A DNA stretch of 64,000 nt from Microbacterium aurugineum (GTDB taxonomy: Bacteria; Actinomycetota; Actinomycetes; Actinomycetales; Microbacteriaceae): the NCBI RefSeq assembly GCF_023101205.1, contig NZ_CP078078.1, forward strand, positions 2,613,411 to 2,677,410, given 5' to 3'. Each line of letters opens with the position of its first letter. The first letter of the stretch is position 1. The notes under the pieces were generated by a model. That model worked only from the letters and a program-made list of their open reading frames with translations, made no database searches and was not told where the DNA came from. Shown piece after piece: positions 31,469 to 48,095 of the stretch. Made by a program: the position numbers and the translations under genes.

Positions 31469-33063
31469 ACCTGAGCCTCCATCACTCGACGCTGCGGGAA
31501 GCGCAGAGTCACGCGGGTGCCGACACCGACCTCACTGGCGATGTCGATACTGCCTTCATGCGCGGCGACGATCTCCCGCACGATGCCCATCCCGAGGCCG
31601 GTGCCGCCGATGCCGGCGCGCACGGCGCTGTCGGTGCGGAAGTAGGGCTCGAACACGCGAGCGACGTCGTCTGCCGCCATGCCGAATCCGTCGTCGATGA
31701 TCGTGACCACCGCCTGGTCGCCCGCCATCGTGTCGAGGTCGATACCGATGTGTCCGCCCGCGGGGGTGTACTTCGCGGCGTTGCTGAGCAGGTTGTCGAC
31801 GACCTGCCGCAGCCGGAAGGCGTCGCCCGAGATGACCAGGCTCTCGGCGCCTTCGACCCGCAGCGTCTGCCTGTTGCTCGAGATGACGGGAGCGTACGAT
31901 GCCGCCGCCGATTCGACGACCTCACGCAGATCCACGGATTCGAAAGGATCCTGGGCGGTGTGACTCGTCTGCCGGAGGATGCTCGTGACCAGGTCGTGCA
32001 TGCGCTCACCCGCGTTCGCGATGATCTCGAGCTGTGCAGGCACCCGCCCCGGCAGGTCTTCGCGCTCACGGAGCAGGTCCACGTGGCCGACGATCGCGGT
32101 GAGGGGGTTGCGCAACTCGTGCGAGATCATGGCGTTGAAGGCCCGGCGTTCCTCGTCGACCTCGAGCCGCGCGGTCACGTCGTCGATCACGACCAGCGTG
32201 ATCGCCTCGCCCTCGCCGGCGCTGGCCATCGGCTGCGTGCTCACCTCGAGGGCCCGCCATTGTCCCGCGCCATCGAACAGCCATACGCGCTCGGCATCGA
32301 GTTTCTCTCCGCCGGCGGCGCGGGCGAGGCAGGTGCGGGAGGGGGGCAGCGCGACGCCCCGTCGGGCGTCATACTCGACGGCGGCCGTGGAGAGCTCCGC
32401 GCCGAAGCGGTCGCGGCCGTAGAGCGCACGGTACGCGTCGTTCATCTGCAGGATGCGCCCTCCCGCCGTGACGACGACGAGGGCGACGCTCAGAGCGTCG
32501 ACGATCTGGATCACCCGCCGCTGATTCGCCTCCGCTCGCACCGCGGCACGATTGACCTGCTCGGAACGACGTTGCAGAAGCCGCCGCGCCGCCCGAGAGC
32601 GCTGCGCACCGATCCGCACCGTCACGCCGAGGAACCCCAGGGTGATGACGAGCGTGAGGAGTCGCAGCAGGATGTCCGCCGGCGAGCCGCTCTGCTCGGC
32701 GAAGAGCACGAGGGTGGCGCTGATGAAGACGATGCCGCCGAACACCCACGGCAGGGTGAAGTACGTGGCCAGCCAGACGATGGGGAAGACCCACAGGAAC
32801 CCCAGGCGGAGGCCCGGCGCATTGGTGGTGAAGCCGATCGCGAGCGCATCCAGGAGTGGCACGACGGCGGCGGCGGAGCGCGGCAGACGGTGCCACGGCA
32901 CGGCCAGCGTGAGCACGCTGGTGACGAGGACGAGCACGGCCCCCGCGACGACCAAGGTGTTGGCGAAAGTCTCTGGTTTGAAGGCCGTGACCATCACGAC
33001 GATCGCGACCACACTGCCGGTGAAGACCAGTTGCCAGCGCCAGATCGACACGGTGCGGATCAT
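31465..33063 (-). CDS. Membrane sensor histidine kinase with PAS domain
   Basis: A 532-aa kinase. About five or six membrane helices span residues 10-155, followed by a coiled-coil linker, a PAS domain (about 185-300) and a HisKA/HATPase core. The phospho-accepting His is in FNAMISHELRNPLTAIVGHV (His315). ATP-binding boxes are LLSNAAKYT, IIDDGFGM and GGTGLGMGIV. It probably pairs with the response regulator at 33270-34070 in the same orientation 206 bases upstream, but they are separated by a hairpin, so pairing is inferred. Confidence 0.9.
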   Translation of the reverse strand: MIRTVSIWRWQLVFTGSVVAIVVMVTAFKPETFANTLVVAGAVLVLVTSVLTLAVPWHRLPRSAAAVVPLLDALAIGFTTNAPGLRLGFLWVFPIVWLATYFTLPWVFGGIVFISATLVLFAEQSGSPADILLRLLTLVITLGFLGVTVRIGAQRSRAARRLLQRRSEQVNRAAVRAEANQRRVIQIVDALSVALVVVTAGGRILQMNDAYRALYGRDRFGAELSTAAVEYDARRGVALPPSRTCLARAAGGEKLDAERVWLFDGAGQWRALEVSTQPMASAGEGEAITLVVIDDVTARLEVDEERRAFNAMISHELRNPLTAIVGHVDLLREREDLPGRVPAQLEIIANAGERMHDLVTSILRQTSHTAQDPFESVDLREVVESAAASYAPVISSNRQTLRVEGAESLVISGDAFRLRQVVDNLLSNAAKYTPAGGHIGIDLDTMAGDQAVVTIIDDGFGMAADDVARVFEPYFRTDSAVRAGIGGTGLGMGIVREIVAAHEGSIDIASEVGVGTRVTLRFPQRRVMEAQV

Positions 33064-33180
33064 CGACGCTCGCCTTTCCGCTCGAAGCTCAGGTTTCCCG
33101 CAAGATTACTCAAAGATCCGTCGAGCCCGCTCTTCAGGCGGCCGTGCACCCCTAGCATTCTGAGTGGGGCCGATACTGCG

Positions 33181-33233
33181 ACTGGGGAACAACGCAGACG
33201 CCGGGGCCACGCGAGTGGGGATTCGCAGGCGCC
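33181..33233. repeat. Short GC-rich tandem repeat
   Basis: About two copies of a 30-base unit with the common core GCAG(A/G)CGCCGGGGCC preceded by TGGGGA, in the gap between kinase and response-regulator genes. The second copy runs into the hairpin at 33234-33261. No coding potential is seen. Confidence 0.5.
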
Positions 33234-33261
33234 GGGGCCGCGGCTGGGGAGCCGCGGCCCC
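33234..33261 (-). terminator. Hairpin downstream of the response-regulator operon
   Basis: A perfect 11-bp stem (GGGGCCGCGGC / GCCGCGGCCCC) with loop TGGGGA, just after the response-regulator stop on the minus strand. No U-tract follows, as is usual in actinobacteria. Confidence 0.6.
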
Positions 33262-33269
33262 GCCCCGGT

Positions 33270-34070
33270 TCAGCCTCCCGTGTCATCAGCGGGAGTCAGG
33301 CGGTAACCGACTCCGCGCACGGTCTCGATGTAGCGCGGGTTCGCCGAGCTGTCACCCAGCTTCCGCCGCAGATTCGCGATGTGGGTCTCGATCGCCCGCT
33401 TGTCCGGTTCGCTCACGTAATCGTTCGACCCCGGTGGCGCTCCCCGCAGTCCGCGCGCGAGCTCCGCTTTGCTGGACACCCGGATGTTCGCCTCGAGGAT
33501 CGCCGCGAGCAGGTCGAACTCCGTGGGAGTGAGATCTATGCGCTTCTGGCCGACGAGCACCAGCCGTGTGTCCAGATCGAGGCTGAGGTCGCGATGCACC
33601 CGGCCCCGCCACGTCAGCACCGTCGCACCGTCGGTGGACGGCTCGTTTGCAGTCGCTGGGCGTGACTCGGTGGTCGGCGGCGCGGCCGCGGGGTGCGGGC
33701 GCCTCAGCAGGGCCTGGATGCGCGCACGCAGCTCACGGGGCCGGAACGGCTTCACGAGGTACTCGTCCGCTCCGGAGGTCAGACCGAGGACCACATCGGA
33801 CTCGTCCGACAGGGCCGAGAGCATGATGATGAAGGTGTCGCTGACCTGCCGGATCCGTCGCGCGACCTCGAAGCCGTCGATCCCCGGCAGGTTGATGTCG
33901 AGGGTGGTGATCACCGGGCGATGCTGCTCGACGGCCGCGATCCCGTCCGGGCCGGAACCTGCGAGGAAGGTCTCGAAGCCGGCGGCCAGGAACACCTCGT
34001 CCAGGAGCGAGCGGACGCCCGGGTCGTCATCGATGATCACGGCGACGAGGGGGGACGTCGCCGCACTCAT
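33270..34070 (-). CDS. OmpR-type response regulator
   Basis: A 266-aa two-domain regulator. The receiver (about 8-125) has the acidic pocket IIDDDPG, phospho-acceptor Asp58 in TLDINLPGIDGF, and the conserved Lys in YLVKPFRP. A Pro/Ala/Thr-rich linker leads to a winged-helix DNA-binding domain (about 165-266; LTPTEFDLLAAIL, THIANLRRKLGD, IETVRGVGYRL). The ATG at 34070 overlaps the tsaE stop (ATGA), with GAGGAGA upstream. It is thus in one transcription unit with acpS-alr-tsaE, an unusual setting that hints at a link to cell-wall physiology. Confidence 0.92.
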   Translation of the reverse strand: MSAATSPLVAVIIDDDPGVRSLLDEVFLAAGFETFLAGSGPDGIAAVEQHRPVITTLDINLPGIDGFEVARRIRQVSDTFIIMLSALSDESDVVLGLTSGADEYLVKPFRPRELRARIQALLRRPHPAAAPPTTESRPATANEPSTDGATVLTWRGRVHRDLSLDLDTRLVLVGQKRIDLTPTEFDLLAAILEANIRVSSKAELARGLRGAPPGSNDYVSEPDKRAIETHIANLRRKLGDSSANPRYIETVRGVGYRLTPADDTGG

Positions 34071-34564
34071 GGGGTCTCCTCGCGCACGATGGTCACGATC
34101 CGTGGGGCATCCGCATCGAGATCCGAGGGGTCGAGTTCCCCGGAGTCGAGTTCGGAGACGCCGACCGGTCGCTCGAGCTCGATGTCCCACCACGCGTCCG
34201 CGAGATCCTCGGCCATCCCCCTCCCCCACTCGATCACCACCACCGAGCGCTCGAGGTCGAGGTCGAGGTCCTCGAGTTCCGCCGCCGATCCGAGTCGGTA
34301 CGCGTCGACGTGCACGAGCGGCGCACGCCCGACCAGCGAGGGGTGGGTGCGGGCGATCACGAAGGTCGGACTCTGCACGGGTCCGCGCACACCGAGCCCT
34401 TCGGCGAGACCACGGGTGAACGTCGTCTTCCCGGCGCCCAGCGGTCCGGTGAGGATGAGCAGGTCGCCCGCCTCCAGCTGCTCACCGATCCGGAAGCCGA
34501 GCTGCTCCATCTCCTCGGACGTCGCGATCTCCCGTCTGCCGAGGAAAGCGGGGTCCACGCTCAC
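34067..34564 (-). CDS. tsaE: tRNA threonylcarbamoyladenosine biosynthesis ATPase TsaE
   Basis: A 165-aa P-loop protein needed for the t6A37 modification of ANN-decoding tRNAs. Walker A is GPLGAGKTT (40-48), followed by FTRGLAEGLGVRGPVQSPTF, and the Walker B-like IEWGRGM region is typical. The Asp/Glu-rich C-terminal extension after about residue 130 is not part of the core. It starts at GTG 34564, overlapping the alr stop; such alr-tsaE order is common in actinobacteria. Confidence 0.93.
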   Translation of the reverse strand: MSVDPAFLGRREIATSEEMEQLGFRIGEQLEAGDLLILTGPLGAGKTTFTRGLAEGLGVRGPVQSPTFVIARTHPSLVGRAPLVHVDAYRLGSAAELEDLDLDLERSVVVIEWGRGMAEDLADAWWDIELERPVGVSELDSGELDPSDLDADAPRIVTIVREETP

Positions 34565-35667
34565 GACGTCCTCCGCGGCACCCGGGGACCGATGCGCGTG
34601 ACGATCTCGTAGTTGATGGTTCCGGCGGCCGCGGCCCAGTCCGCCGCCGAGGGCACGCCGAGGGTGGGATCGCCGAACAGGACCACCTCGTCCCCGACCG
34701 AGACCGGCGTGTCACCGACGTCGACGACGAACTGATCCATCGCGATCCTCCCGACGTTCACGAACCGCCGTCCGCCGATCGAGACGGGGAGCCTGCCCGA
34801 GGCGTTCCGGGGCACGCCGTCGGCGTATCCGAGGGGCACGAGCACCAGCGTCGTGTCGCGATCCGTGCGGTGGGCGTAGCCGTAGGAGACACCCGTGCCC
34901 GCGGGCACCCGGCGGACCGCGACGATCGCTCCGCGCAGAGTCATCGCCGGACGCAGACCGAGCTCGGCGGAGCTGCGGTCGTCGAACGGCGAGAGGCCGA
35001 AGAGCCCGATGCCGATGCGCACGGCATCGAGCCGCATCTCGGGCAGGTCGATCGCTGCGGCGGTGGCGGCGATGTGCCGGATCTCGGGATGGATACCGAA
35101 AGAGGCGGCCGCGGCGACACCTTCCTCGAACTTCGCCAGCGCAGCCCGGTCGTCCTCCGCGGAGGTGTTGGAGAGGTGGCTGAAGAGGCCGACGATACGC
35201 AGTCGTCCGATCCGCTCCAGACGCGCGGCCTCGGCCAGTACCCGCCCCCAGTCGGCCGGAGCGATGCCGTTGCGCGACAGCCCCGTCTCGAACTTGAGGT
35301 GCACCCCGACCGGACGGTCGACGGCGGCAGCGGCAGCGGCGGCCTCGAGCTGATCGAAGGAGGAGACACCGATCTCCACGTCTTGGGCCGCGGCGTGCTC
35401 GAACCGCTCGCCCGGCGCGTGCAACCAGGCCATGATCGGCGCGTGCACGCCCTGCCTGCGCAGTTCGAGGGCCTCGGGGATCTCGGCGACGCCGAGGCGT
35501 GTCGCTCCGGCAGAGAGCGCGGCGACGGCGGTCGCGGCAGCACCGTGCCCGTAGGCGCCGGCCTTGACGACCGCGATCACCTCGACGCCGGTGAGGCGGC
35601 GGAAGTGCCGCACGTTGTCGGCGACGGCATCGAGGTCGATGGTCGCCTCACGGAACGGGACGGTCAC
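34561..35667 (-). CDS. alr: Alanine racemase
   Basis: A PLP enzyme (368 aa) converting L- to D-alanine for peptidoglycan. The PLP Lys lies in VVKAGAYGHG (Lys35; most homologues have KADAYGHG), and the catalytic Tyr in GVSYGYAHRT (about residue 265). The C-terminal beta domain carries the substrate/PLP loop (VGRIAMDQFVVDVG). Both ends overlap neighbours by four bases (GTGA), so acpS-alr-tsaE-response regulator form a tightly coupled operon. Confidence 0.96.
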   Translation of the reverse strand: MTVPFREATIDLDAVADNVRHFRRLTGVEVIAVVKAGAYGHGAAATAVAALSAGATRLGVAEIPEALELRRQGVHAPIMAWLHAPGERFEHAAAQDVEIGVSSFDQLEAAAAAAAVDRPVGVHLKFETGLSRNGIAPADWGRVLAEAARLERIGRLRIVGLFSHLSNTSAEDDRAALAKFEEGVAAAASFGIHPEIRHIAATAAAIDLPEMRLDAVRIGIGLFGLSPFDDRSSAELGLRPAMTLRGAIVAVRRVPAGTGVSYGYAHRTDRDTTLVLVPLGYADGVPRNASGRLPVSIGGRRFVNVGRIAMDQFVVDVGDTPVSVGDEVVLFGDPTLGVPSAADWAAAAGTINYEIVTRIGPRVPRRTS

Positions 35668-36023
35668 AGCGGCGCTCCTTCTGCGACGACGAACGCGGCA
35701 GCGAGGCCCGCGTCGTGGGTGAGAGTCAGATGCAGGGTGCGGATGCCGCGCTCCTCGACGACCGCGGCCGTCGAGCCGGAGAGGACGAAGTGCGGACGAC
35801 CCGACGCCTCCGAGGCGATCTCGATCTCGGTCCAGTGCACCCCATCCGAGCCGCCGAGTGCTTTGATCAGCGCCTCTTTGGCCGCATACCTCGCCGCCAG
35901 GGAAGGAAGACGCAGCGGGCGCTCCGACGGGGCGAAGAGCCGCTCCAGGAGGCGGGGGGTCCGGGTCATCGTGCGCTCGAACCGCGGGATGTCCACGAGG
36001 TCGATGCCGGTGCCGATGATCAT
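35664..36023 (-). CDS. acpS: Holo-[acyl-carrier-protein] synthase AcpS
   Basis: A 119-aa phosphopantetheinyl transferase moving the 4'-phosphopantetheine arm from CoA to apo-ACP. Motifs: GTGIDLVDIPRFERTM at the N-terminus and RYAAKEALIKALGG in the middle, which supply the Mg-binding Asp and Glu; a final HLTLTHDAGLAAAFVV strand closes the fold. It is the first gene of the operon, downstream of a strong hairpin that separates it from glmS. Confidence 0.95.
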   Translation of the reverse strand: MIIGTGIDLVDIPRFERTMTRTPRLLERLFAPSERPLRLPSLAARYAAKEALIKALGGSDGVHWTEIEIASEASGRPHFVLSGSTAAVVEERGIRTLHLTLTHDAGLAAAFVVAEGAPL

Positions 36024-36060
36024 CCGTTCAGCCTATCGAGCATGCATCCGGTTGATGTCG

Positions 36061-36101
36061 CGCGAATGGCTCCGTTTCCGGTGGAAACGGAGCCATTCGC
36101 G
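36061..36101 (-). terminator. Long perfect hairpin between glmS and acpS
   Basis: A 19-bp perfect stem (36061-36079 with 36083-36101; CGCGAATGGCTCCGTTTCC and its complement) and a 3-base loop GGT. It stands 17 bases downstream of the glmS stop and would end that transcript. No U-tract is present on either side. Confidence 0.75.
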
Positions 36102-36117
36102 TGATTCGAAGCCTGTC

Positions 36118-37965
36118 TTACTCGACGGTGACGGACTTCGCGAGGTTTCGGGGCTGGTCCACGTCCAGGCCCTTCGCGGTCGCGAGCGCCATCGCGAAGA
36201 TCTGCAGCGGCACGACCGAGAGCAGCGGCTCGAACATCGCTCCGGCGAGCGGGATGTGGATGACCTCGTCGGCGAACGGCAGCACGGCCGCATCGCCCTC
36301 TTCGGCCACCACGATCACCCGGGCACCGCGAGCACGGATCTCCTGGATGTTCGAGACGACCTTCGAGTGCACGAGCGCGGAGTGACGCGGGGAGGGCACC
36401 AGCACGAACACGGGCTGCCCCGGCTCGATCAGAGCGATCGGACCGTGCTTGAGCTCGCCCGCGGCGAAGCCCTCCGCGTGGATGTAGGAGATCTCCTTGA
36501 GCTTGAGCGCACCTTCGAGGGCGATCGGGAAGCCGACGTGGCGACCGAGGAACAGCACCGAGCGGGTGTCGGCCATCCATCCGGCGAGCTGGGTGACGTG
36601 CTCCTGCTCGCTCTCGAGGACCTCGGCGATCTTCGCGGGCAGCTCGGTGAGTTCCGCGACGTCGGTCGAGGCGTCGGCCACGGTGCCGCGCACGCGCCCC
36701 ATGTGCAGGCCGAGCAGCAGCAGGGCGGTGATCTGCGCCGAGAACGCCTTGGTCGAGGCGACCGCGACCTCGGGGCCGGCGTGGGTGTAGACGACGGCGT
36801 CCGACTCGCGCGGGATGGTCGCACCCTGGGTGTTGCAGATCGAGAGCGTGCGGGCGCCTCGCTCCCGGGCGTACTTCACGGCCATCAGGGTGTCCATGGT
36901 CTCGCCCGACTGACTGATCGACACGACGAGGGTGTCGGCGCCGATCACCGGATCGCGGTAGCGGAACTCGTGCGCGAGCTCGACGTCGACCGCGACGCGC
37001 GCCCACTGCTCGATCGCATACTTGCCGACGAGGGCCGCATACGAAGCCGTGCCGCACGCGGTGATGATGACGCGGTTGATCCCGGTGAAGAGGTCGTCGA
37101 GGCCGTCGAGCTCGGGGATGACGACCTGGCCGTCCTGGATGCGGCCGCGGATCGTGTTCGCCACGGCCTCGGGCTGCTCGGAGACCTCCTTGGCCATGAA
37201 GCTCGACCATCCGCCCTTCTCGGCGGCGGCGGCGTCCCACGAGACGTCGAAGGGCTCGGGCTCGACCGGGGTGCCGGCGAAGTCGATGACGCTGATGGAG
37301 TCGGGGGTGATCGAGACGATCTGGTCCTGGCCGATCGCCAAGGCCTTGCGCGTGTGCTCGATGAAGGCGGCCACGTCGGAGCCGAGGAAGTTCTCGCCCT
37401 CGCCGAGACCGATCACGAGCGGCGAGTTGCGGCGGGCGCCGACCACGAGGCCCGGGTGGTCCTGGTGCATCGCGAGAAGCGTGAACGCCCCCTCGAGGCG
37501 GTTCACGACCTTGCGGAAGGCGAGCTGCAGGTCTCCGCCGTTGCCGGCGTACTCACGCCCGAGCAGGGCGGCTGCGACCTCGGTGTCGGTCTCGCTGCGG
37601 AACACCACACCGTCAGCGAGCAGCTCTTCACGCAGGGCCGAGAAGTTCTCGATGATGCCGTTGTGGATGACGGCGAGCCTGTCGTCGTCCGCCAGGTGCG
37701 GGTGGGCGTTGACGTCGGTCGGTCCGCCGTGCGTCGCCCAGCGCGTGTGACCGATACCGGTCGACCCGTCGGGGAGCGGCGCGTCGGCAAGCGAGTCGCG
37801 CAGCTTCGCGAGCTTGCCCGCCTTCTTCCGCATGCCGAGGGATCCGTCACCGTCGATCACGGCGACGCCCGCGGAGTCATAGCCGCGGTACTCGAGGCGG
37901 GCGAGGCCGGCAAGAAGGATGTCCTGGCTGGGGCGCGGGCCCACGTATCCGACGATTCCACACAT
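36118..37965 (-). CDS. glmS: Glutamine-fructose-6-phosphate aminotransferase (isomerizing)
   Basis: A 615-aa enzyme making glucosamine-6-phosphate, the first step of amino-sugar synthesis for peptidoglycan. The N-terminal glutaminase domain begins MCGIVGYVG with the catalytic Cys2; the C-terminal half has two SIS sugar-isomerase domains (about 290-430 and 460-600; SQSGETMDTL is the sugar-phosphate loop), ending in PRNLAKSVTVE. No ribozyme-like leader was recognised; the 63-base gap to coaA holds only an AT-rich promoter-like stretch. Confidence 0.97.
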   Translation of the reverse strand: MCGIVGYVGPRPSQDILLAGLARLEYRGYDSAGVAVIDGDGSLGMRKKAGKLAKLRDSLADAPLPDGSTGIGHTRWATHGGPTDVNAHPHLADDDRLAVIHNGIIENFSALREELLADGVVFRSETDTEVAAALLGREYAGNGGDLQLAFRKVVNRLEGAFTLLAMHQDHPGLVVGARRNSPLVIGLGEGENFLGSDVAAFIEHTRKALAIGQDQIVSITPDSISVIDFAGTPVEPEPFDVSWDAAAAEKGGWSSFMAKEVSEQPEAVANTIRGRIQDGQVVIPELDGLDDLFTGINRVIITACGTASYAALVGKYAIEQWARVAVDVELAHEFRYRDPVIGADTLVVSISQSGETMDTLMAVKYARERGARTLSICNTQGATIPRESDAVVYTHAGPEVAVASTKAFSAQITALLLLGLHMGRVRGTVADASTDVAELTELPAKIAEVLESEQEHVTQLAGWMADTRSVLFLGRHVGFPIALEGALKLKEISYIHAEGFAAGELKHGPIALIEPGQPVFVLVPSPRHSALVHSKVVSNIQEIRARGARVIVVAEEGDAAVLPFADEVIHIPLAGAMFEPLLSVVPLQIFAMALATAKGLDVDQPRNLAKSVTVE

Positions 37966-38028
37966 GCGAACAAGAGTAAGCCGGGATTTTTGCGAGTCGT
38001 CCGAACAATATTTCGGTCGGCGTGCTCC

Positions 38029-38973
38029 TCAGAGCTTGCGCAGCAGCACGCTCTCGACGTCATGGTCGGCGCCCTTGCGCAGCACGAGTCGCGCCCGGTG
38101 TCGCGTGGGCATCACGTTCTCGACGAGGTTGGGCATGTTGATCTCGTTCCAATACCCGAGGGCGGTCGTGATCGCCTCCTCATCGGTGAGATGGGCGAAC
38201 ACGTTGAAATAGGACGAGGGGTTGCTGAACGCCGCCTGCCGCAGAGCGAGGAAGCGATCGACGTACCACTTCTCGATGTGCGAGGTCTCGGCATCGACGA
38301 AGATCGAGAAATCGAACAAATCGCTCACTGCGACGTCGTTCGGGGCGGGCGGCGGCTGCAGCACGTTCAGCCCCTCGACGATCACGACGTCGGGGCGACG
38401 CACCACGACGTTCGCGTCGGGGACGATGTCGTAGCGCATGTGGGAGTAGAAGGGCGCGCGCACTTCGGTGGCCCCGCTCTTCACCTCGGTCAGGAACTCG
38501 ATCAGCGCACGCCGGTCGTACGACTCCGGGAAGCCCTTGCGGTCCATGATGCCGCGGCGTTCGAGCTCGGCGTTCGGATAGAGGAAGCCATCGGTGGTGA
38601 CCAGCTCCACTCGCGGGGTGCCGGGCCAGCGGCTCATCAGCTCGCGCAGCAGACGGGCGATCGTCGACTTGCCGACCGCGACCGAGCCCGCGACGCCGAC
38701 GACGAACGGCGTCGTCGTGTCGTCCTCCTGCAGGAACGACGAGGTGGCGGCGCCCAGACGCTTCGTCGCCGTCGCGTACAGGCTGAGCAGACGACTCAGC
38801 GGCAGGTACACCTCGCGCACCTCGGTGAGGGACAGACGATCCCCGATACCGCGGAGTTCGACGACCTCGGTCTCGGTGAGCGGCTGATCGAGCCCGGCGG
38901 CGAGACGCGCCCACTCCGCGCGTCCGATCTCCCGATAGGGCGACAGCGGCAGCGTGGGGTCGACGGTGGTCAC
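38029..38973 (-). CDS. coaA: Pantothenate kinase, type I
   Basis: A kinase (314 aa) phosphorylating pantothenate, the first step of CoA synthesis. Walker A is [12 protein letters not shown]; further family motifs are [35 protein letters not shown] and EGLNVLQ. GTG 38973 is preferred over the ATG at 38982: a TACGAT -10 overlaps that ATG and would place the transcript start at the GTG (leaderless), and the resulting length matches other actinobacterial enzymes. It is divergent from ppx across about 37 bases. Confidence 0.93.
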
Positions 38974-39010
38974 GCAGTACATCGTATCCGGGCGCGAGTA
39001 GTCTCTTTCC

Positions 39011-39985
39011 GTGCGCCTGGGAGTCCTCGACATCGGATCAAACACCGTTCACATGCTGGCGGCCGACGTCCGCCCCGGTGGACGTCCGCTCGCGACGACG
39101 AGCGACAGGACGGTGCTGCGCCTCATGCGCTACCTCACACCCGACGGCGCGATCTCGGAGGAGGGCGTGCAGGCGCTCGAGACCGCGGTCACTCAGGCCC
39201 GCCGCGTCGCCGAGGCCGAGCGCGTCGACGCCCTCCTGGCCACCGCGACCAGCGCGGTGCGTGACGCCCGCAACGGCGCGGCGGTCATCGCCCGCATCGA
39301 GGCCGCTCTGGGGCAACCCCTGCAGGTGCTCGACGGCGAGACCGAGGCGGAGCTGACCTTCCTCGCCGTGCGGCGCTGGTTCGGCTGGTCGGCCGGACAG
39401 CTGCTGCTGCTCGACATCGGCGGGGGCTCTCTGGAGATCGCGGCCGGAGCGGAGGAGATGCCCGACGCCGCCGCGTCCGTGCCCCTCGGAGCCGGGCGCA
39501 TGACGGTGCAGTACCTCCCGAACGACCCGCCCGGCGAGGCGGACGTCGAGAGACTGCGCGCGCACGCGGAGGCGACCATCGCGACCGTCCTGCCCCGATT
39601 CGTCGCCCTCCCCCGTCCCGATCACGTGGTGGGTTCCTCGAAGGCGATCCGCTCGCTCGCCCGCCTGGTCGGCTATCCGGCGCCGGGATGGTCGGGGAGC
39701 GAACGCATGCTGCTGCCGCGGGCGTCGCTCGGCTCGTGGATCCCCCGGCTCGCGCGCCTTCCCGCGTCGGCCAGACAGGAACTGCCGGGGATCACCCCCG
39801 ACCGGACCTTCCAGATCGTGGCCGCGGCCGTGTCGCTGCACGTGGCGATGACCGCGCTCGAACTGGAGGAGCTCGAAGTGTCGCCGTGGGCGCTGCGCGA
39901 GGGAGTGCTGCTCCGCTACATCGAGCATCTGAACGGGACCCCGATCGAGACTGAGAGCATCGAGGAGCCGCCGCGGCTACCATGA
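39011..39985 (+). CDS. Ppx/GppA-family phosphatase
   Basis: A 324-aa member of the exopolyphosphatase/pppGpp phosphatase group. The ASKHA nucleotide fold is clear: phosphate-1 loop [23 protein letters not shown], and the second loop [13 protein letters not shown]. It is the short form without a C-terminal HD domain, common in actinobacteria (Ppx1/Ppx2 type). Start at GTG 39011, probably leaderless with a TAGTCT -10 just before it. It is followed by a truncated VanZ-like gene. Confidence 0.9.
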
Positions 39986-39989
39986 CGGC

Positions 39990-40379
39990 ATGCCTTCCCC
40001 CCGCCTCGCCCCCGTGCCCGGCGGAGTGCTGATCGCACGGGTGGCGCTCGTCGGCTACCTCCTCTTCGTGGGGTTCACCGTCTGGCTGCCGGCGACGGTC
40101 TCCGAGAAGGTCACCGGTCTGGTCGGCATCATGGCCCGGTGGGTCGCCGACGCGGGCATCGCCCCGTACCGCCCGAGTGCCGTGGTGCTGGAGGTGCTCG
40201 CGAACGTCTCGCTGTTCGTGCCCGTGGGTCTGCTGCTCGCCTTCGCACTGCCGCGTCTGCGACTCTGGCAGATCGTCGTCATCGGCGCACTGATGAGTGC
40301 GGTGATCGAGTCGGTGCAGGGCTTCATGCCCTCCCGAGCACGCTGGTCGGGTTCGCTGCCTTGTCGGTCGAGATGTTGA
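39990..40379 (+). pseudogene. VanZ-family protein, 3'-truncated
   Basis: The first 115 residues follow the VanZ pattern: an N-terminal helix, a second helix (VLEVLANVSLFVPVGLLLAF) and the start of the motif IESVQGFMPSR. Family members continue with an Asp/Asn-containing motif and two more helices; here the frame goes into ARWSGSLPCRSRC and stops. The break coincides with the truncated end of the opposite-strand CapD-like gene at about 40333, so both genes were cut by one deletion. It begins four bases after the ppx stop. Residual function is doubtful. Confidence 0.75.
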
Positions 40380-41601
40380 TGAAGGTGCTCACTCCCGCCT
40401 CGCGTGCGGCGTCGAGCACGTTGAGCGTGCCGATGACGTTGGTCTTCCAGGCTTCGTCCGGATACTGCTCGAGCATGGGCAGATGCTTGAGCGCGGCGGC
40501 GTGGAAGATCACCTCGGGCTGGCGGTCGCGGAAGATCTCGAAGAGGGCAGCGCTGTCGCGGATGTCGGCGAGCACCACATCTCTGGTGTCGAGCAGGCCG
40601 TGGCCCGCCGTTCCGAGCTGCGCCATCTGCGGGCCGGTCTCGTCGCGGTCGAGCATCATCAGCTCGCTCGGCCCGTACTTGACGAGTTGGCGGCACAGCT
40701 CCGAGCCGATCGATCCGCCGGCGCCGGTGGCCAGCACACGGCGCCCTGTGATGTACCCGGCGATCAACTCGACATTCGTGTCGACGGGATGGCGCCCGAT
40801 CAGGTCCTCGATGCTGATGTCGCGCACGTCCCCGGGCGATTCCTCGCCGCTCACCATGCTACTCAGGGTCGGGGTGACGACGACTCTGAGGCCCGCCGCC
40901 TCCGCATCGTCCGTCAGTCGACGCAGCAGCGCCGCATCCGCGCGTCCGATCGCGATGACGAGGACCTTCGCTCCCGTGCGCGCCGCGATCTCCGCGATCT
41001 GATCGGTGCGGCCGAGCACCGGGACGCCCCGTAGCCGGAGGTGCCGTTTGCCCGGATCGTCGTCGAGGATCCCGACCGGCCGGATGGGCGAGGACGGGTC
41101 GGTGGTGACGTTGTGCAGCAGCGTGTCGGCGACGTGGCCGGCACCGATGACGACCGCAGGATCCGCGGCGTCGTCCGGCTTGCGCGACCGTTCGATGAAC
41201 AGGCGGGCCGCGTAACGGACGCCGAACATCAGCAGGAGCACGAAGGGGAAGGCGAGCAGGACGGTCCCCCGGGGGACACCGATGAAGGGCCCCACGATGA
41301 TGACCGCCACCGCGAGCACCAGCGCCAGCGCGCTCACCGCAGCCGCGAGATTGCGCACCTCCTCGAACGACCCGTAGGTGAAGCGCCCGAGGTAGAAACG
41401 CAGGGAGAACCCGATGCCCACCTGGATCGCCGCCGCCGTCAAGGCAAGCACGACCGTGGATGCCCATCCCGCCAGCGTCGGCTCGAACTCGAATCGCAGC
41501 ACGACGGCGGCGAGGATGCCCACGATCCAGGCTCCTGCGTCGACCGTCGCGGCCAGTGCACGTCGGCGCCGTGGCGCGAGTGCGATCGTCTTCTCCGACA
41601 T
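40324..41601 (-). pseudogene. Polysaccharide biosynthesis dehydratase/epimerase (CapD/FlaA1-like), 3'-truncated
   Basis: A 425-residue remnant of an NDP-sugar 4,6-dehydratase-type protein, normally about 600 aa. It has four N-terminal membrane helices, a Rossmann CoA-binding-like domain (about 135-260) and the start of the catalytic SDR domain (TGAGGSIGSELCRQ, FHAAALKHLPMLE, NISTDKAANPTSVLG). The frame breaks straight after VLG and ends in RA-stop, losing about 170 residues including the rest of the active site. The break is at the same point as that of the VanZ-like gene. Confidence 0.8.
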
Positions 41602-41742
41602 CCCCCTGTGTCAGCCCTCCCTGAAATAGGTCTCTCGGACGTCGGCCTCCCCGCCTCCGCCCGAGTGATCGTCCTCCTCCTGGCATATCGACGACGTCAT
41701 CGCCGTCACGCGCGCGCCGACGCCGCGGTCACGGAGTGATCG

Positions 41743-42186
41743 TCACGGCTTCGGGGACGCGCGGAAGACGATGCCGTGATAAAGCACGAAGCGCAGCAGA
41801 ACCACGATCACGATGCTCGTCAGGTTCACGAGGTTGACCGCGACAGCGCCCGGCTCTCGCCCGAGAATCGCCTCCACGCCTTCGACCCCCACCCAGACGA
41901 GAACAGCGCCCAGGGCGGTGCAGACGGCGTTCGTGGCGAGGAACAACACGACCTCCGCGGTCCTCCCCCGCCGATCACGGTGCCGGAAGGTCCACTCCCG
42001 GTTGCCGATGTAGGCGTTGACGAGCGCGACCAGTGAAGCCACGATCTTCGCGGCGACGACATCCCAGCCCCACACGAACACCAGGAGGTTGAAGACCCCC
42101 ACCTCGATGAGAGTGCTCAGCGCGCCCACGACCAGGAACCGGCTGCCGACGCCGGCGAGCCGACGCAGTCGGGTGGGAAGATCCAT
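41743..42186 (-). CDS. GtrA-family membrane protein
   Basis: A 147-aa protein with four membrane helices (RFLVVGALSTLIEVGVFNLL near the start; IVIVVLLRFVLYHGIVF at the end). GtrA-type proteins are proposed to help move lipid-linked sugars across the membrane and usually pair with a GT2 glycosyltransferase. Here the partner is likely the divergent GT2 gene at 42241. It reads toward the truncated CapD gene. Confidence 0.88.
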   Translation of the reverse strand: MDLPTRLRRLAGVGSRFLVVGALSTLIEVGVFNLLVFVWGWDVVAAKIVASLVALVNAYIGNREWTFRHRDRRGRTAEVVLFLATNAVCTALGAVLVWVGVEGVEAILGREPGAVAVNLVNLTSIVIVVLLRFVLYHGIVFRASPKP

Positions 42187-42240
42187 AGCTCAACTAGGCT
42201 ACTTCCTGATCCCCGCGCACCTCGCCACCCCAAGGACCCC

Positions 42241-43026
42241 GTGACCCTCCGCCACCTCGCCGTCGTCATGCCCGCCTACAACGAGGCCGAAGGCATCCGC
42301 GACTTCATCGACGAGATCCGCGACTCCTTGTCTCCGGTGGTCGACCGCGTGACGTTCCATATCGCGGACGACCGCTCGACCGATGGGACCGCCACCGTGT
42401 TCGACGACGTCGAGGACGTCGCGGTCGAGGTGCAGCCGCTCAACCGCGGGCACGGTCCGACCGCACTCGCGGCCTATCGCGCCGGGCTTGCAGTGGAGCC
42501 CGATGTGCTCGTGCACGTGGACGGCGACGGGCAGTTCCACGGCCGCGATTTCCCCCGGCTGCTCGCCGCGCTCGACGCCGAGAGCGCCGATGTCGTCCAC
42601 GGCGTCCGCGACGGACGCACGGACCCCTGGTACCGCAAGGTGCTCACGGGAGCCGTCGGTCTTGTGATCGCGCTGGCCGCCGGGCGCCGGATCCCGGATG
42701 TGAACACCCCGCTGCGGGCGTACCGCACGCCAGCCCTGCGGGCCCTGGTCGAGGCCACCCCACCGGATGCATCGGTGCCGCACGTGCACTTCTCTCTGGC
42801 CGAGGCCCGCGCGGGGTTCACGGTGCGCTACCTTCGAGTCGACAGCATCCCCCGCCGCGGCGCTTCCGCCACCGGCACGATGTGGGGACGCGGGAGCACC
42901 GTCGCTCTCCCCCCGAAGCGCCTGCGCCTTTTCGTCCGCACCGCCCTCGTCGAAGCGTGGGAACTCTCCCTGCGGCCGTCCGCTCCGCTGCGCAACATCC
43001 ATCGACCGGAGACCGTCGCGCGATGA
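42241..43026 (+). CDS. GT2-family glycosyltransferase (polyprenyl-phosphate sugar synthase-like)
   Basis: A 261-aa GT-A transferase. The opening VVMPAYNEAEGIRDFI, then ADDRSTDGT, and the metal-binding motif HVDGDGQF are typical of dolichol/polyprenyl-phosphate mannose or glucose synthases. There is no C-terminal membrane pair, so a separate GtrA protein may serve as anchor or flippase. Start at GTG 42241, in a 54-base gap shared with the divergent gtrA. The stop overlaps the next gene by four bases, tying it to the membrane transferase. Confidence 0.9.
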   Translation: MTLRHLAVVMPAYNEAEGIRDFIDEIRDSLSPVVDRVTFHIADDRSTDGTATVFDDVEDVAVEVQPLNRGHGPTALAAYRAGLAVEPDVLVHVDGDGQFHGRDFPRLLAALDAESADVVHGVRDGRTDPWYRKVLTGAVGLVIALAAGRRIPDVNTPLRAYRTPALRALVEATPPDASVPHVHFSLAEARAGFTVRYLRVDSIPRRGASATGTMWGRGSTVALPPKRLRLFVRTALVEAWELSLRPSAPLRNIHRPETVAR

Positions 43027-44474
43027 CCCGCGCACGCACGATCGTGTTCTGGGTGGCCGCGGCCGCCTTGCTGATCGGGCACGTCATCGTCGCCTGGCAC
43101 AGTCTCGTGGTGTGGCCGTTCTGGGAGGATGAGGCCTTCAACCTCACCGTCCCCCGCAATCTGCTCGACGGGCTCGGATACTCCAGCGACGGCGCGCTCT
43201 CCGGCTCGACCATGACTCCGTTCGACCCGCGCATCTCCACGGGACCGGTCGTGCTCCTCCCGGTCGCTGCACTCCTCGCGACCGGTATCGATCCGGTGCT
43301 GGCCTCCCGGCTCGTCCCGCTGGGCTTCTGGATCGTGCTGCTCCTGGGTCTCGCGGTGCTCGGACGACGCATCGGCGGTCGCTGGGCTGCGCTGCTCGCC
43401 GTGGCCGTGCCCCTCGCCTTCACCGCCGACGCCGGAATCTCCCCGATCCAGGGGCCGGCCGACCTCCTCGGCGAGATCCCCGCGGCGGCCCTGATCGTCT
43501 GGGCGCTCCTCGTGCTCCCCCGCCGGGCGTGGCTGGCCGGTCTCTTCATCGGGCTGGCGATCCAGACGAAGCTCATCGCGATCCTCGTCCTCCCGGCCTT
43601 CGCCGTGGCCCTGTGGGTGCTCTCGGACGGCGCAGGGTGGGCACGGGTTCGCGAGACGCTGCGGCGATCGTGGCTGCCGCTGCTGCTGGTCGCCGTACCG
43701 ACACTGCTCGTCGAACTGGCGGCCCTGGTCTCGCTCGGCTTCTCGGGCTACGTGAAGCACCTGCGCGACCTCGCCTACTTCATCCGGAGCGGCGGCCAGG
43801 ACGACGCGGCGACCACGGTGCTGCAGAAGCTCGACACCCTCGCCGGCTCCTGGTCCCTGCCTCCGGCACTCGCCGTGCTCGGCGCCCTCCTGGCCGTCGC
43901 CCTCGCCGTGGTCGGCATCGTCCGGCGGTGGCGCACCGCGACGGAGACCGAGCGCGTCGTGATCGCGTACGCCCTCACGGCGCTCGTCGGCGCACTCGCC
44001 TTCATCGGCTGGTGGGCGACGGCCTCGCGGCTGCCGCTGTGGGTGCGGCACCCCGCCCCCGCCGTCTATGCGTTCTTCCCGGTCATCGCCGCCGTCGCCG
44101 TCTGGTCTGTCGCGCGACTTCCCCGACGCGGCGTCCTGCGCATCTTCGGTGTCGTCGCCGCGTCGCTCCTGGCCGCCGTCGTCGCCGGGGGCGCTGCCGT
44201 GCACGTCGCGTCGTCGTTCGAGCCTCGGGCGCTCACCCTCGAGCGTCAGCGAGCCGCCGTCGTGCCGCTGACCGCCTGGGTCACCGAAAACGGCGTGGAG
44301 TGGCTCGCCGCGGATCCGTGGGGCGCGGCCGTCCCGCCCATCGTGCTCACCGGCGCGCATGTCGGCCTCTTCGATGCGCCAGCGATGGCGGGCGTTCCCC
44401 GGCTCACAGGTCTCGCGTGCACGACCGAGACGCTCGTCGACAGCGACCTCTACCGGATCTGCGCGGCCCCCTAG
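43023..44474 (+). CDS. Membrane glycosyltransferase, GT39/ArnT-like
   Basis: A 483-aa polytopic protein with about ten to twelve helices. The first outer loop has FWEDEAFN, matching the acidic (D/E) motif of GT-C enzymes that take sugars from polyprenyl-phosphate donors. It is co-translated with the GT2 gene, which would make that donor, so the pair probably glycosylates an exported acceptor (lipid, polymer or protein). The acceptor cannot be told from sequence. A C-terminal soluble loop has Cys residues (LACTTETLVDSDLYRICAAP). Confidence 0.75.
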   Translation: MTRARTIVFWVAAAALLIGHVIVAWHSLVVWPFWEDEAFNLTVPRNLLDGLGYSSDGALSGSTMTPFDPRISTGPVVLLPVAALLATGIDPVLASRLVPLGFWIVLLLGLAVLGRRIGGRWAALLAVAVPLAFTADAGISPIQGPADLLGEIPAAALIVWALLVLPRRAWLAGLFIGLAIQTKLIAILVLPAFAVALWVLSDGAGWARVRETLRRSWLPLLLVAVPTLLVELAALVSLGFSGYVKHLRDLAYFIRSGGQDDAATTVLQKLDTLAGSWSLPPALAVLGALLAVALAVVGIVRRWRTATETERVVIAYALTALVGALAFIGWWATASRLPLWVRHPAPAVYAFFPVIAAVAVWSVARLPRRGVLRIFGVVAASLLAAVVAGGAAVHVASSFEPRALTLERQRAAVVPLTAWVTENGVEWLAADPWGAAVPPIVLTGAHVGLFDAPAMAGVPRLTGLACTTETLVDSDLYRICAAP

Positions 44475-44499
44475 AGAAGGGGTCCTCGCGGTGAACGAA

Positions 44500-44536
44500 G
44501 AACCGGCCGGACGCTGTATCAGCGACCGACCGGTTC
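44500..44536. terminator. Bidirectional hairpin between GT39-like gene and glmM
   Basis: A 17-bp stem with two mismatches (GAACCGGCCGGACGCTG / CAGCGACCGACCGGTTC) and a TAT loop, placed midway between the convergent stops at 44474 and 44553. Confidence 0.7.
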
Positions 44537-44552
44537 CGAAGGACTACGGGCC

Positions 44553-45911
44553 TCAGAGCGCGAGACGCTCCTGGACGACCTCCGCCAGGCGTCCTGCGTA
44601 GGCGTGCACCGACTCGGCGTCGGCCGCCTCCACCATGACGCGGACGAGCGGCTCGGTGCCGGACTTGCGCAGCAGCACGCGGCCGGTGTCTCCCAGCTCG
44701 GTCTCGATGTCGCGCACGGCCTGCTGCACGACCTCGTCTTCGGAGACGCGGTCCTTGTCGACGTCGCGCACGTTGATGAGCACCTGCGGGTAGACGGTCA
44801 TCACCGAGGCGAGCTCGGCGATCGTCTTCTTCTGCCGCGCCATCTCCGCGACGAGGTGAAGACCCGTGAGGATGCCGTCCCCCGTGGTCGCATACTCGCT
44901 CATGATGACATGACCCGACTGCTCGCCACCGAGGGCGTACCCGCCCTCGTTCATGTCCTCGAGCACATACCGGTCGCCGACAGCGGTCTGCCGGATCGTG
45001 ATCCCGTGCTCGCGCATCGCGACGTGGAGTCCGAGGTTGCTCATCACGGTCGCGACGAGGGTGTCGTCGGTGAGGTGGCCGCGCTCCTTCATCGACACCG
45101 CGAGGATCGCCATGATCTGGTCTCCGTCGATGACCTTGCCCTCGGCGTCGACGGCCAGGCATCGGTCGGCGTCGCCGTCGTGGGCGATGCCGATGTCGGC
45201 TCCCAGACGCACGACGGCCTCGGCGAGGTTGTCGAGGTGGGTCGAACCGACCCCGTCGTTGATGTTCCAGCCGTCAGGGTCCGCCCCGATGACGGTGACT
45301 TCGGCACCCGCGTCGCGGAACGTCTCCGGCGACACACCGGAGGCCGCGCCGTGGGCGCAGTCGAGCACGACGTGGATGCCGTTCAGACGGTTCGGCAGTG
45401 AGCCGAGAAGGTGCACGACGTAGCGGTCCTCAGCGTCGGAGAACCGGTCGATCCGACCGACGCCGGCACCGGTGGGACGCAGCATCTCCCCGTGCATGGC
45501 CTCTTCGATGCGCTGCTCGACCACGTCGGGGAGCTTGCGTCCGCCTCTGGCGAAGATCTTGATGCCGTTGTCGGGGGCCGCGTTGTGCGACGCCGAGATC
45601 ATGACGCCGAAGTCGGCATCGCGGTCGGCCACCAGGAACGCGAGCGCCGGCGTGGGGATGACCCCTGCTTCGAGCACATCGACGCCCGAGGAGGCGAGAC
45701 CTGCGGAGACGGCCGCGGTCAGAAAGTGTCCGGAGACCCGGGGGTCCCGGGCGACAACTGCGGTGAGTCGCTTGCCCTCGGCCTTGCGGGCCTCCGCAGT
45801 ACGGCCCTGGCCCAGGACGACAGCAGTCGCCTGGGCCAGGGTGAGCGCCAGGTCGGCGGTGAGGATGCCATTGGCGAGTCCTCGCACGCCGTCCGTGCCA
45901 AAGATCGGCAT
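44553..45911 (-). CDS. glmM: Phosphoglucosamine mutase
   Basis: A 452-aa enzyme converting glucosamine-6-phosphate to glucosamine-1-phosphate, the step after GlmS. It starts [11 protein letters not shown]; the phosphoserine loop is [17 protein letters not shown] (catalytic Ser108), the metal loop DGDADRC, and the sugar loop GGEQSGHVI. It lies downstream of rpsI with a 14-base gap, the common actinobacterial order rplM-rpsI-glmM, and is probably co-transcribed with them. Confidence 0.97.
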
Positions 45912-45925
45912 CGGAGCAGTGGACC

Positions 45926-46411
45926 TTAACGCTTCGAGTACTGAGGCGCCTTGCGGGCCTTCTTGAGTCCAGCCTTCTTGCGCTCCTTGACGCGAGCGTC
46001 GCGGGAGAGGAAGCCGGCCTTCTTCAGGGTCGGACGGTTGTTCTCCTCGTCGATGCCGTTCAGCGAACGAGCGATTCCGAGGCGGAGTGCGCCGGCCTGA
46101 CCCGAGGGGCCACCACCGGAGATACGAGCGATGACGTCGTATGCACCGGCGAGGTTCAGCACCGTGAACGGGTCGTTGATGAGCTGCTGGTGCAGCTTGT
46201 TCGGGAAGTAGTCCTCGATCGTGCGGCCGTTGACCGTGATCGTGCCCGAGCCGGGGACGATGCGCACGCGGGCGATGGCCTGCTTGCGACGGCCGACAGC
46301 GGCACCGGGGACGCTGAGGACGGGGCGGGGAGCCGCCTCGACCACGTCGGTCTCCGGAGTCGACGTCGAGAAGTTCTGGGGGGTTTCGGTGGTGTCCTGG
46401 ATGTCAGCCAC
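45926..46411 (-). CDS. rpsI: 30S ribosomal protein S9
   Basis: 161 aa. A 35-residue acidic, Thr-rich N-terminal extension, usual in actinobacteria, precedes the S9 core ([40 protein letters not shown]) and the C-terminal basic tail ending in YSKR, which reaches the P-site tRNA. GTG start with TAAGGA upstream. It is paired with rplM, 28 bases upstream. Confidence 0.98.
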
Positions 46412-46438
46412 GAGTATGTCCTTAAGTCTTTACGGCGC

Positions 46439-46885
46439 TTACTGGGCGACCTGGTCGAGGGTGTACGGCGTCGGCTGCTGCGCGGCGTGCGGGTGCTCTG
46501 CACCGACGTACACCTTGAGCTTGGACAGCTGCTGGCGGCCGATGCTGTTCTTCGGGAGCATGCCACGGATGGCCTTCTCCACGGCACGGACCGGGTTCTT
46601 CTCGAGGAGCTCGGCGTAGGTGACCGACTTCAGACCACCCGGGTAGCCGGAGTGACGGTAAGCCAGCTTCTTCTGGAGCTTCTGACCGGTGAGCGCGACC
46701 TTCTCCGCGTTCACGATGATGACGAAGTCACCCGAGTCGATGTGGTTGGCGAAGGTCGGCTTGTGCTTGCCACGGAGGAGGGTGGCGGCGTGCGAGGCGA
46801 GGCGGCCGAGAACGACGTCGGTGGCGTCGATGACGACCCAATCGCGCTGGACTTCGCCAGCCTTGGGAGTGTAAGTGCGCGTCAC
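46439..46885 (-). CDS. rplM: 50S ribosomal protein L13
   Basis: 148 aa with the L13 core ([50 protein letters not shown] [20 protein letters not shown]). GTG start. First gene of the rplM-rpsI operon; its 158-base leader and promoter are described separately. Confidence 0.98.
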
Positions 46886-47049
46886 GATAGTGCTGCTTTC
46901 TTGTGTCGAACGGAGAAGTTCGTGAATCCCACTCCGGGGTGGTTCGTCCTCTCCGGCTCATCGAGCGGGAAGAGAGGGGAACACGCCAGTGGAGGGCTCA
47001 CGTTCGGACGATGCCCTCTCCCGCACGCGGGTAAAGGCACCAAAGGGAA

Positions 47050-47079
47050 ATCATACGCCACCTGGTGCGGTATGCCCAA
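47050..47079 (-). promoter_or_regulatory. Promoter of rplM-rpsI
   Basis: On the minus strand: -35 TTGGGC (47079-47074), 18-base spacer, -10 TATGAT (47055-47050). It gives a leader of about 155 bases before rplM, long enough for ribosomal-protein feedback, though no known L13 leader structure was recognised. Confidence 0.6.
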
Positions 47080-47089
47080 ACCGCACTGC

Positions 47090-47758
47090 TCAGTCGGGCT
47101 TGACCGTCACGAGGATCGGCCGGTGGTCGCTCGCGCCCTGGGGCAGGGTCGTGATGCGTTCGATCTCGAACCCGGCCGACGTCGCGAAGTCGTAGTGTCC
47201 GCGGAACACCCGATAGCGCGTGTAGGTGTGGTCGTCGCTGAGCGACAGGGCATAGCCGTGGTTGCGGACGGCCTGTCCGAGGTTCTCCTTGAAGATCGGG
47301 TAGTTGTAGTCGCCGACCATCAGCTGGGGCAGCCCTTCACCCAGCGCCGCGAGTTCGGTGAGCGCGGCGCGGATCTGGTGGCGACGCAAGGAGTTCAACG
47401 CGGTCAACGGTGCCGCGTGGAACGAGGCCACGATGAAGTCCCGGCCGTCGTCGATGTCGCGCAGTCGCGCACCGAGCACGCGTTCGTGGGCGGGCTTGGC
47501 GATCCGGTCATGCAGCGACTTCTTCAGCCCGAGCGTGCGGATGGACTGCAGGTGGTACGAACTCGACCGATAGAACAGGGCGAGGCCGAGGCGGTTGCCC
47601 TGTGTGGCGTCGGCGAGTTCGAGATCACCGATCCGCGCGGGAAGCTCGGGGACATCGCACTCCTGGAGGCAGAGGATGTCGGGGTCGTGCTCGCGGACCA
47701 GCGCCGCGAGTTCGCCCGCGGCCCGATGCTTCTGGAGGTTGTACGAGATGACCTTCAT
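47090..47758 (-). CDS. Endonuclease/exonuclease/phosphatase-family protein
   Basis: A 222-aa protein of the DNase I-like EEP fold. Motifs: an opening Asn in ISYNLQKHR, the metal-binding Glu in CLQECD, the catalytic His in VASFHAAPL, the Asp-x-Asn in MVGDYNYP and the C-terminal ASDHRPILVTV. The substrate could be DNA, phosphoinositide-like lipid or another phosphoester. There is no signal peptide. It reads toward rplM; its start faces the 337-base gap before the WXG100-like module. Confidence 0.85.
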   Translation of the reverse strand: MKVISYNLQKHRAAGELAALVREHDPDILCLQECDVPELPARIGDLELADATQGNRLGLALFYRSSSYHLQSIRTLGLKKSLHDRIAKPAHERVLGARLRDIDDGRDFIVASFHAAPLTALNSLRRHQIRAALTELAALGEGLPQLMVGDYNYPIFKENLGQAVRNHGYALSLSDDHTYTRYRVFRGHYDFATSAGFEIERITTLPQGASDHRPILVTVKPD

Positions 47759-47847
47759 GACCGTCCCACGCTACTCGCCCCTGCTGTGCCCCGGCTCCGG
47801 ATCGGCGCCTTCGCGTATCGTCGCGGACGACCGCTCAGAGTAGAATA

Positions 47848-47876
47848 TTACCTTACACATGGTTACCGAATATGAT
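47848..47876 (+). promoter_or_regulatory. Putative promoter of the WXG100-like module
   Basis: -10 TATGAT (47871-47876) with a poor -35 TTACCT (47848-47853) and a 17-base spacer. The direct repeats GAATAT and TTACC around it may bind a regulator. Transcription would run through the 5'-truncated frame into the gene at 48096. Confidence 0.45.
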
Positions 47877-47983
47877 CGACGGGTCTGAAGACCGCGGTCG
47901 ACGGTATCAACGACATGTCGGAGTCGCTGCTGGGCATGATGCGTGCGATCCAGGATCTGGATCAGCAGCTCGCGGGCAGCTGA
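47876..47983 (+). pseudogene. 5'-truncated reading frame, possible WXG100-type remnant
   Basis: An open frame without start codon (an in-frame stop lies at 47873) reads STGLKTAVDGINDMSESLLG and on to QDLDQQLAGS before its stop. Amphipathic helical pattern and location before a WXG100-like gene suggest the tail of a small secreted helical protein whose front was lost. Only 22 residues could be made from the internal ATG. It could also be chance; the codon usage looks coding. Confidence 0.45.
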
Positions 47984-48095
47984 CGCACGGCGGCGCCTCG
48001 AGCGGGCGGGTCGGTGACATCCACCGCCCCTCCCGCTCTGCTCTGCCCGCGCTCAGGCCAATCATTCTGACCCTCACAGCGGAAGGACTCTGACC

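Follow-up and report, generated by a model that had tools for sequence, protein, structure and literature searches.

A single deletion of about 22–25 kb, which occurred in the ancestor of both strains available to us, almost certainly removed a Wzx/Wzy-type exopolysaccharide locus from Microbacterium aurugineum, whose genome (3.63 Mb) is represented by a single contig. The window, a stretch of 64,000 nucleotides from this contig, contains the scar of the event, at which a VanZ-family membrane protein gene (vanZ) and a convergently oriented dehydratase gene (capD) meet tail to tail. Together with this capsule-like locus, the deletion would have taken two gene ends, namely the 3' end of vanZ and, at the opposite boundary, the 3' half of capD, the gene of a FlaA1/PglF-like UDP-GlcNAc 4,6-dehydratase. 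An earlier note on this DNA had proposed one deletion between convergent genes, and this is strongly supported by the arrangement in relatives and by the junction itself, one event rather than several being the simplest reading. The species sample for the deletion comprises two strains, the window strain and Microbacterium sp. CBA3102.

Both genes are interrupted within a conserved domain (Table 1). The vanZ stump (vanZ') keeps codons 1 to ~116 of ~157, the C-terminal quarter being gone, and its product matches only positions 4–101 of the 126 in Pfam profile PF04892, while the product of the capD stump (capD') loses its match to PF02719 (Polysacc_synt_2) at position 140 of 293. After the motif MPSR, the VanZ proteins of relatives (n = 6) continue for 40–46 further residues; the intact CapD of M. 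sufflavum has 610 residues, and the capD similarities to M. sufflavum, M. murale and M. oxydans all start at window position 40333. Pfam limits, protein lengths in relatives and this similarity edge confirm that vanZ on the plus strand and capD on the minus strand are both cut near 40333, as had been noticed from the sequence before. With respect to its family, the window VanZ matches the N-terminal three quarters of PF04892 and lacks the C-terminal part; in relatives, vanZ adjoins polysaccharide genes.

Table 1. Features at and around the deletion junction, in window coordinates.
Feature	Position	Strand	Basis or remark
ppx/gppA phosphatase gene, intact left flank	39011..39985	+	adjoins vanZ in relatives
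vanZ' ORF	39990..40379	+	overlaps capD' ORF tail to tail
vanZ' genuine part, 5' portion of VanZ-family membrane protein gene	39990..40336	+	PF04892; 157-aa M. sufflavum ortholog
vanZ' out-of-gene tail, antisense through capD' to a stop	40337..40379	+	ORF reading
capD' ORF	40324..41601	-	FlaA1/PglF-like dehydratase gene
capD' genuine part, N-terminal, CoA_binding_3 and first half of dehydratase domain	40333..41601	-	Pfam, ortholog alignment
capD' final codons and stop, from antisense vanZ'	40324..40332	-	ORF reading
deletion junction, CCCG compatible with either flank	40333..40336		flank sequences
gtrA, intact right flank	41743..42186	-	Pfam; relatives' order
GT2 glycosyltransferase gene, intact right flank	42241..43026	+	Pfam; relatives' order
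GT39-like gene (label of the earlier note), intact right flank	43020..44474	+	relatives' order

A search for vanZ gave matches in 73 of 119 Microbacterium genomes (own genome included), mostly to distant VanZ proteins, and the regions of the six best non-self matches (G060, G116, G005, G066, G022 and G083) were compared together with those of G160, taken to be M. sufflavum, and of G117. The alignment with related genomes that had been proposed in the earlier note finds the intact arrangement in all eight relatives compared, with a long vanZ and a long capD 22–34 kb apart and flanked by ppx and gtrA. The gene order in the six vanZ-selected relatives is ppx–vanZ–segment–capD–gtrA–GT2–GT39–glmM; the choice by vanZ makes these six uninformative on how frequent the order is across Microbacterium. 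Between the residues matching the two stumps, the gap amounts to 21,842–24,799 bases in these six, to 24,461 bases at the equivalent residues of M. sufflavum and to ~34 kb in G117, whose vanZ is more distant (50%). Upstream, coaA precedes ppx in the window and in five of the six vanZ-selected relatives. In the remaining one, G060, no coaA match was found within roughly 900 bases before ppx, so that the ppx side is rearranged in this genome. As a separate observation, capD and gtrA lie side by side in M. sufflavum, G116 and the window, and ~4–6 kb of extra DNA separates them in five of the six vanZ-selected relatives (all but G116).

At the breakpoints, M. sufflavum reads GCCCTCCCGC on the vanZ side and GTGCCCGAGCACG on the capD side, and the window reads GCCCTCCCGAGCACG across the junction. 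Since CCCG fits both M. sufflavum flanks, the join lies within 40333–40336. These 4 nt are common to both breakpoints if M. sufflavum is taken to represent the lost ancestor; the chance of at least 4 shared nucleotides is about 0.026. Within 300 bases of the M. sufflavum breakpoints, the two sides have no exact word of more than 10 nt in common, so that the search for long direct repeats as a possible substrate of homologous recombination found none. The combination of four shared nucleotides at this chance level with the lack of long repeats renders short-homology joining or slippage at CCCG likely, though not proven. The ends would then have been joined at the 4 nt microhomology by a RecA-independent illegitimate joining or slippage event.

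The junction is not restricted to one assembly. CBA3102, a second, separate assembly of the same species, matches window positions 33001–48000 gaplessly at 99.54% (69 differences in 15,000 bases) and contains both short frames and the identical junction; the early stop in its capD was also recovered in a whole-genome survey of the genus. A false assembly join at 40333 between remote parts of the chromosome is consequently very unlikely, to the point of being negligible, as the same junction recurs in a chromosome with 69 differences in the 15,000 flanking bases. In addition, the vanZ' and capD' stumps of both strains bear strain-specific differences, and the missing genes tested are absent from both genomes; we therefore rejected misassembly. 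In the survey, which covered 295 genomes, a search with the intact M. sufflavum CapD gave matches at E 1e-60 or better in 52, six of which were left out as paralogs (partial, 38–41% identity). The match is uninterrupted over most of CapD in 42 of the 46 genomes with a capD ortholog, and capD ends at the junction only in the window strain and CBA3102 (2/46); the other exceptions are G121, with an internal TAG, and G163, where the gene is split between contigs. Relatives with the same short forms of both proteins had been named beforehand as the finding that would speak against a deletion, and the conspecific CBA3102 alone has them, with no short capD conserved in several other species among the 295 genomes. 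It would thus be extraordinarily surprising if the short forms were ancestral or functional and the locus had been inserted in relatives. While the capD' frame is open over 425 codons in the window, this reading is contradicted by the dominance of the long capD, by Pfam domains of VanZ and CapD that are both cut mid-domain and by the capD' start codon, ATG in the window and ATT in CBA3102, and it was rejected on these grounds. The single in-frame TAG in the capD ortholog of another Microbacterium (G121:C1:868051-869805) is possibly an independent inactivation of the gene.

Both genes ending at one point also resembles a rearrangement breakpoint, as expected if an inversion or translocation had moved the missing halves of vanZ and capD elsewhere in the chromosome. 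From 12.2 of the 24.5 kb of segment DNA, only stretches shorter than 75 bases were found in the window genome and in CBA3102, in a search that scored the best 40 of 371 and of 387 first-look candidates, respectively, and the Wzz/kinase protein of the segment gave only short weak matches. PF02719 has seven matches in the window genome, with one other at full length (a 340-aa frame at 2.177 Mb, 35% identical to capD' over the aligned part) and five weak and partial; the one other VanZ match (PF04892) is itself near full length. A single phosphoglycosyltransferase gene is left (2.948 Mb), compared with two in M. sufflavum, one of them inside the segment. As far as tested with 12.2 kb of DNA, the Wzz/kinase protein and three Pfam families, the segment is absent from the rest of the genome. 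With the missing halves not found in these own-genome searches, an inversion or translocation was rejected and retains a vanishingly small probability. A loss in two or more deletion steps, or by way of a mobile element that has since departed, is improbable to a lesser degree; the sequence would allow for internal deletions that preceded the final one, and against them stands a simple junction, with flanks overlapping by CCCG and nothing between them. We therefore keep the single deletion as the preferred reading. From reading the sequences, another region of surface-glycan-like character was noted near 2.15–2.18 Mb of the window genome.

The content of the missing segment was assessed from 19 proteins, 18 of M. 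sufflavum plus a DUF4012 protein encoded at the equivalent place in G116, which cover the M. sufflavum segment except for two stretches of ~1 kb each. In order from vanZ to capD, the proteins are a low-molecular-weight tyrosine phosphatase, a Wzz/tyrosine autokinase, a protein without Pfam match, an HTH_18 regulator, a small matchless protein, an HGSNAT_cat-type protein, an S26-type signal peptidase, the DUF4012 protein, a Wzy_C protein, a flippase-like protein, two glycosyltransferase-like proteins (matches below cut-off), a WecB/CapG-like epimerase, a CapF-like reductase, a CapE/FnlA-like dehydratase, a GT4 glycosyltransferase, a PglD-like acetyltransferase, a phosphoglycosyltransferase and a DegT aminotransferase. 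Bac_transf, Wzy_C and Wzz score above their Pfam cut-offs. The NCBIfam cut-offs are reached for wecB, NeuD/NnaD and the tyrosine autokinase TIGR01007, and missed for FnlA, the CapF-like reductase WbcJ, the LegC-type aminotransferase and exopolysaccharide sugar transferases. The flippase candidate, a 480-aa protein, has a weak MurJ match (20.3 bits vs a cut-off of 27.4). With a phosphoglycosyltransferase, a polymerase and a chain-length regulator/kinase, three hallmarks of a Wzx/Wzy locus are found in the M. sufflavum segment, and we read its 24.5 kb, from protein family matches, as a putative polysaccharide locus of this type, in line with the earlier proposal that the missing segment probably held a surface-polysaccharide locus. 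The CapE/F/G genes presumably point to a sugar of the N-acetylfucosamine type, and the PglF/E/D/C-like set to what we take to be a start sugar of the bacillosamine type. The cell would accordingly no longer make this polymer, although another phosphoglycosyltransferase gene remains, and the surface phenotype predicted is one without polymer from this locus.

The remaining capD fragment is unlikely to retain activity. The intact M. sufflavum ortholog aligns with PglF (WlaL; PDB 5bju), which we take to be the UDP-GlcNAc 4,6-dehydratase of Campylobacter, over residues 261–577 (E 7e-80), with TSVLGHSK opposite TNIMGCTK. The window CapD reads TSVLGRA and then stops, so that the stop sits at the place of the PglF-aligned lysine, which is catalytic in SDR enzymes, and the domain remaining after it in PglF is missing. 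The complete catalytic domain including the SDR lysine, which marks an active UDP-GlcNAc 4,6-dehydratase, is thus not present in capD', and with half of this domain missing the stump would be inactive. Downstream of capD in M. sufflavum are the genes of a DegT aminotransferase, a phosphoglycosyltransferase and a PglD_N acetyltransferase, which together with the dehydratase form a set as in diNAc-bacillosamine synthesis.

Between the window strain and CBA3102, capD' shows five nonsynonymous and no synonymous differences, in comparison to 9 and 41 for 14 neighbouring genes summed, some of which overlap by a few bases (Fisher p 0.0006, or 0.002 leaving out the divergent gene at 47090; the numbers are small, and capD' was picked for this comparison after the changes had already been seen there). 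M1I (ATG to ATT), D180H and T243I are derived in CBA3102, residue 324 is Pro in the window and Leu in CBA3102 and all 11 aligned relatives, and residue 103 is a variable site. Derived changes are hence present in both strains, and four of the five hit the start codon or a residue invariant in the 11 aligned relatives, the first position being aligned in M. sufflavum only. This substitution pattern looks like relaxed selection on the capD stump. The single difference in vanZ' is synonymous, so that decay is not shown for this stump. Within the compared region, 24 of the 69 differences fall in 0.8 kb (47062–47860), and the gene at 47090–47758 has a dS of 0.089, where the other genes counted range from 0 to 0.04, a divergent tract that looks like a recombined one.

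Loss of capsule or exopolysaccharide loci by large deletion is known in many bacteria. As in those cases, the genes for assembly, export and sugar-nucleotide synthesis would here have been removed at once, leaving gene stumps, with the difference that the deletion is common to both sampled strains of a species rather than a product of laboratory passage. Biologically, this is ordinary gene loss of an already well documented kind, here well resolved: the natural loss of an exopolysaccharide locus is mapped precisely and can be compared with intact relatives, in a phage-rich genus. In the titles and opening parts of abstracts among the matches listed for Microbacterium exopolysaccharide gene clusters and their deletion, the locus is not described, and the matches listed for the strain name concern bovine microbiome sequencing only. 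Many phages have been isolated on Microbacterium, with 116 phages covered in one report (PMC7302621).

Next to the junction, the module of gtrA, GT2 and GT39 is intact, the GT39-like gene giving no Pfam match at E 1e-3 over 42882–44471. The earlier note had regarded these three genes as what remains of the locus, which holds in part. In a sample of 119 genomes, taken as included in the 295-genome survey, 24 genomes have the GT39 gene and 19 the capD ortholog, with both in 17 (Fisher p 3e-13), supporting a link; the GT39 gene is found without a capD match in 7 of its 24 genomes, five of which belong to the no-match genomes that the survey does not name individually, and capD without GT39 in 2. 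Among these seven, G023 and G064 are drafts with more than 100 contigs, in which capD may have been missed. The module is apparently linked to the locus and not dependent on it. As it also occurs without the locus, its genes need not be dead remnants, and that interpretation was considered and not adopted; nonsynonymous differences between the window and CBA3102 (0 of 3 in all for gtrA, 1 of 1 for GT2 and 0 of 1 for GT39) are too few to settle the matter. It is conceivable, if on balance unlikely, that polysaccharide loss was selected in the species, e.g. by receptor-using phages or a habitat shift, and that gtrA–GT2–GT39 may now decorate another envelope polymer. In some Microbacterium species, ppx sits elsewhere, flanked by glmM and the GT39 gene or on that side of gtrA which faces capD, a variable placement that suggests rearrangements around the locus.
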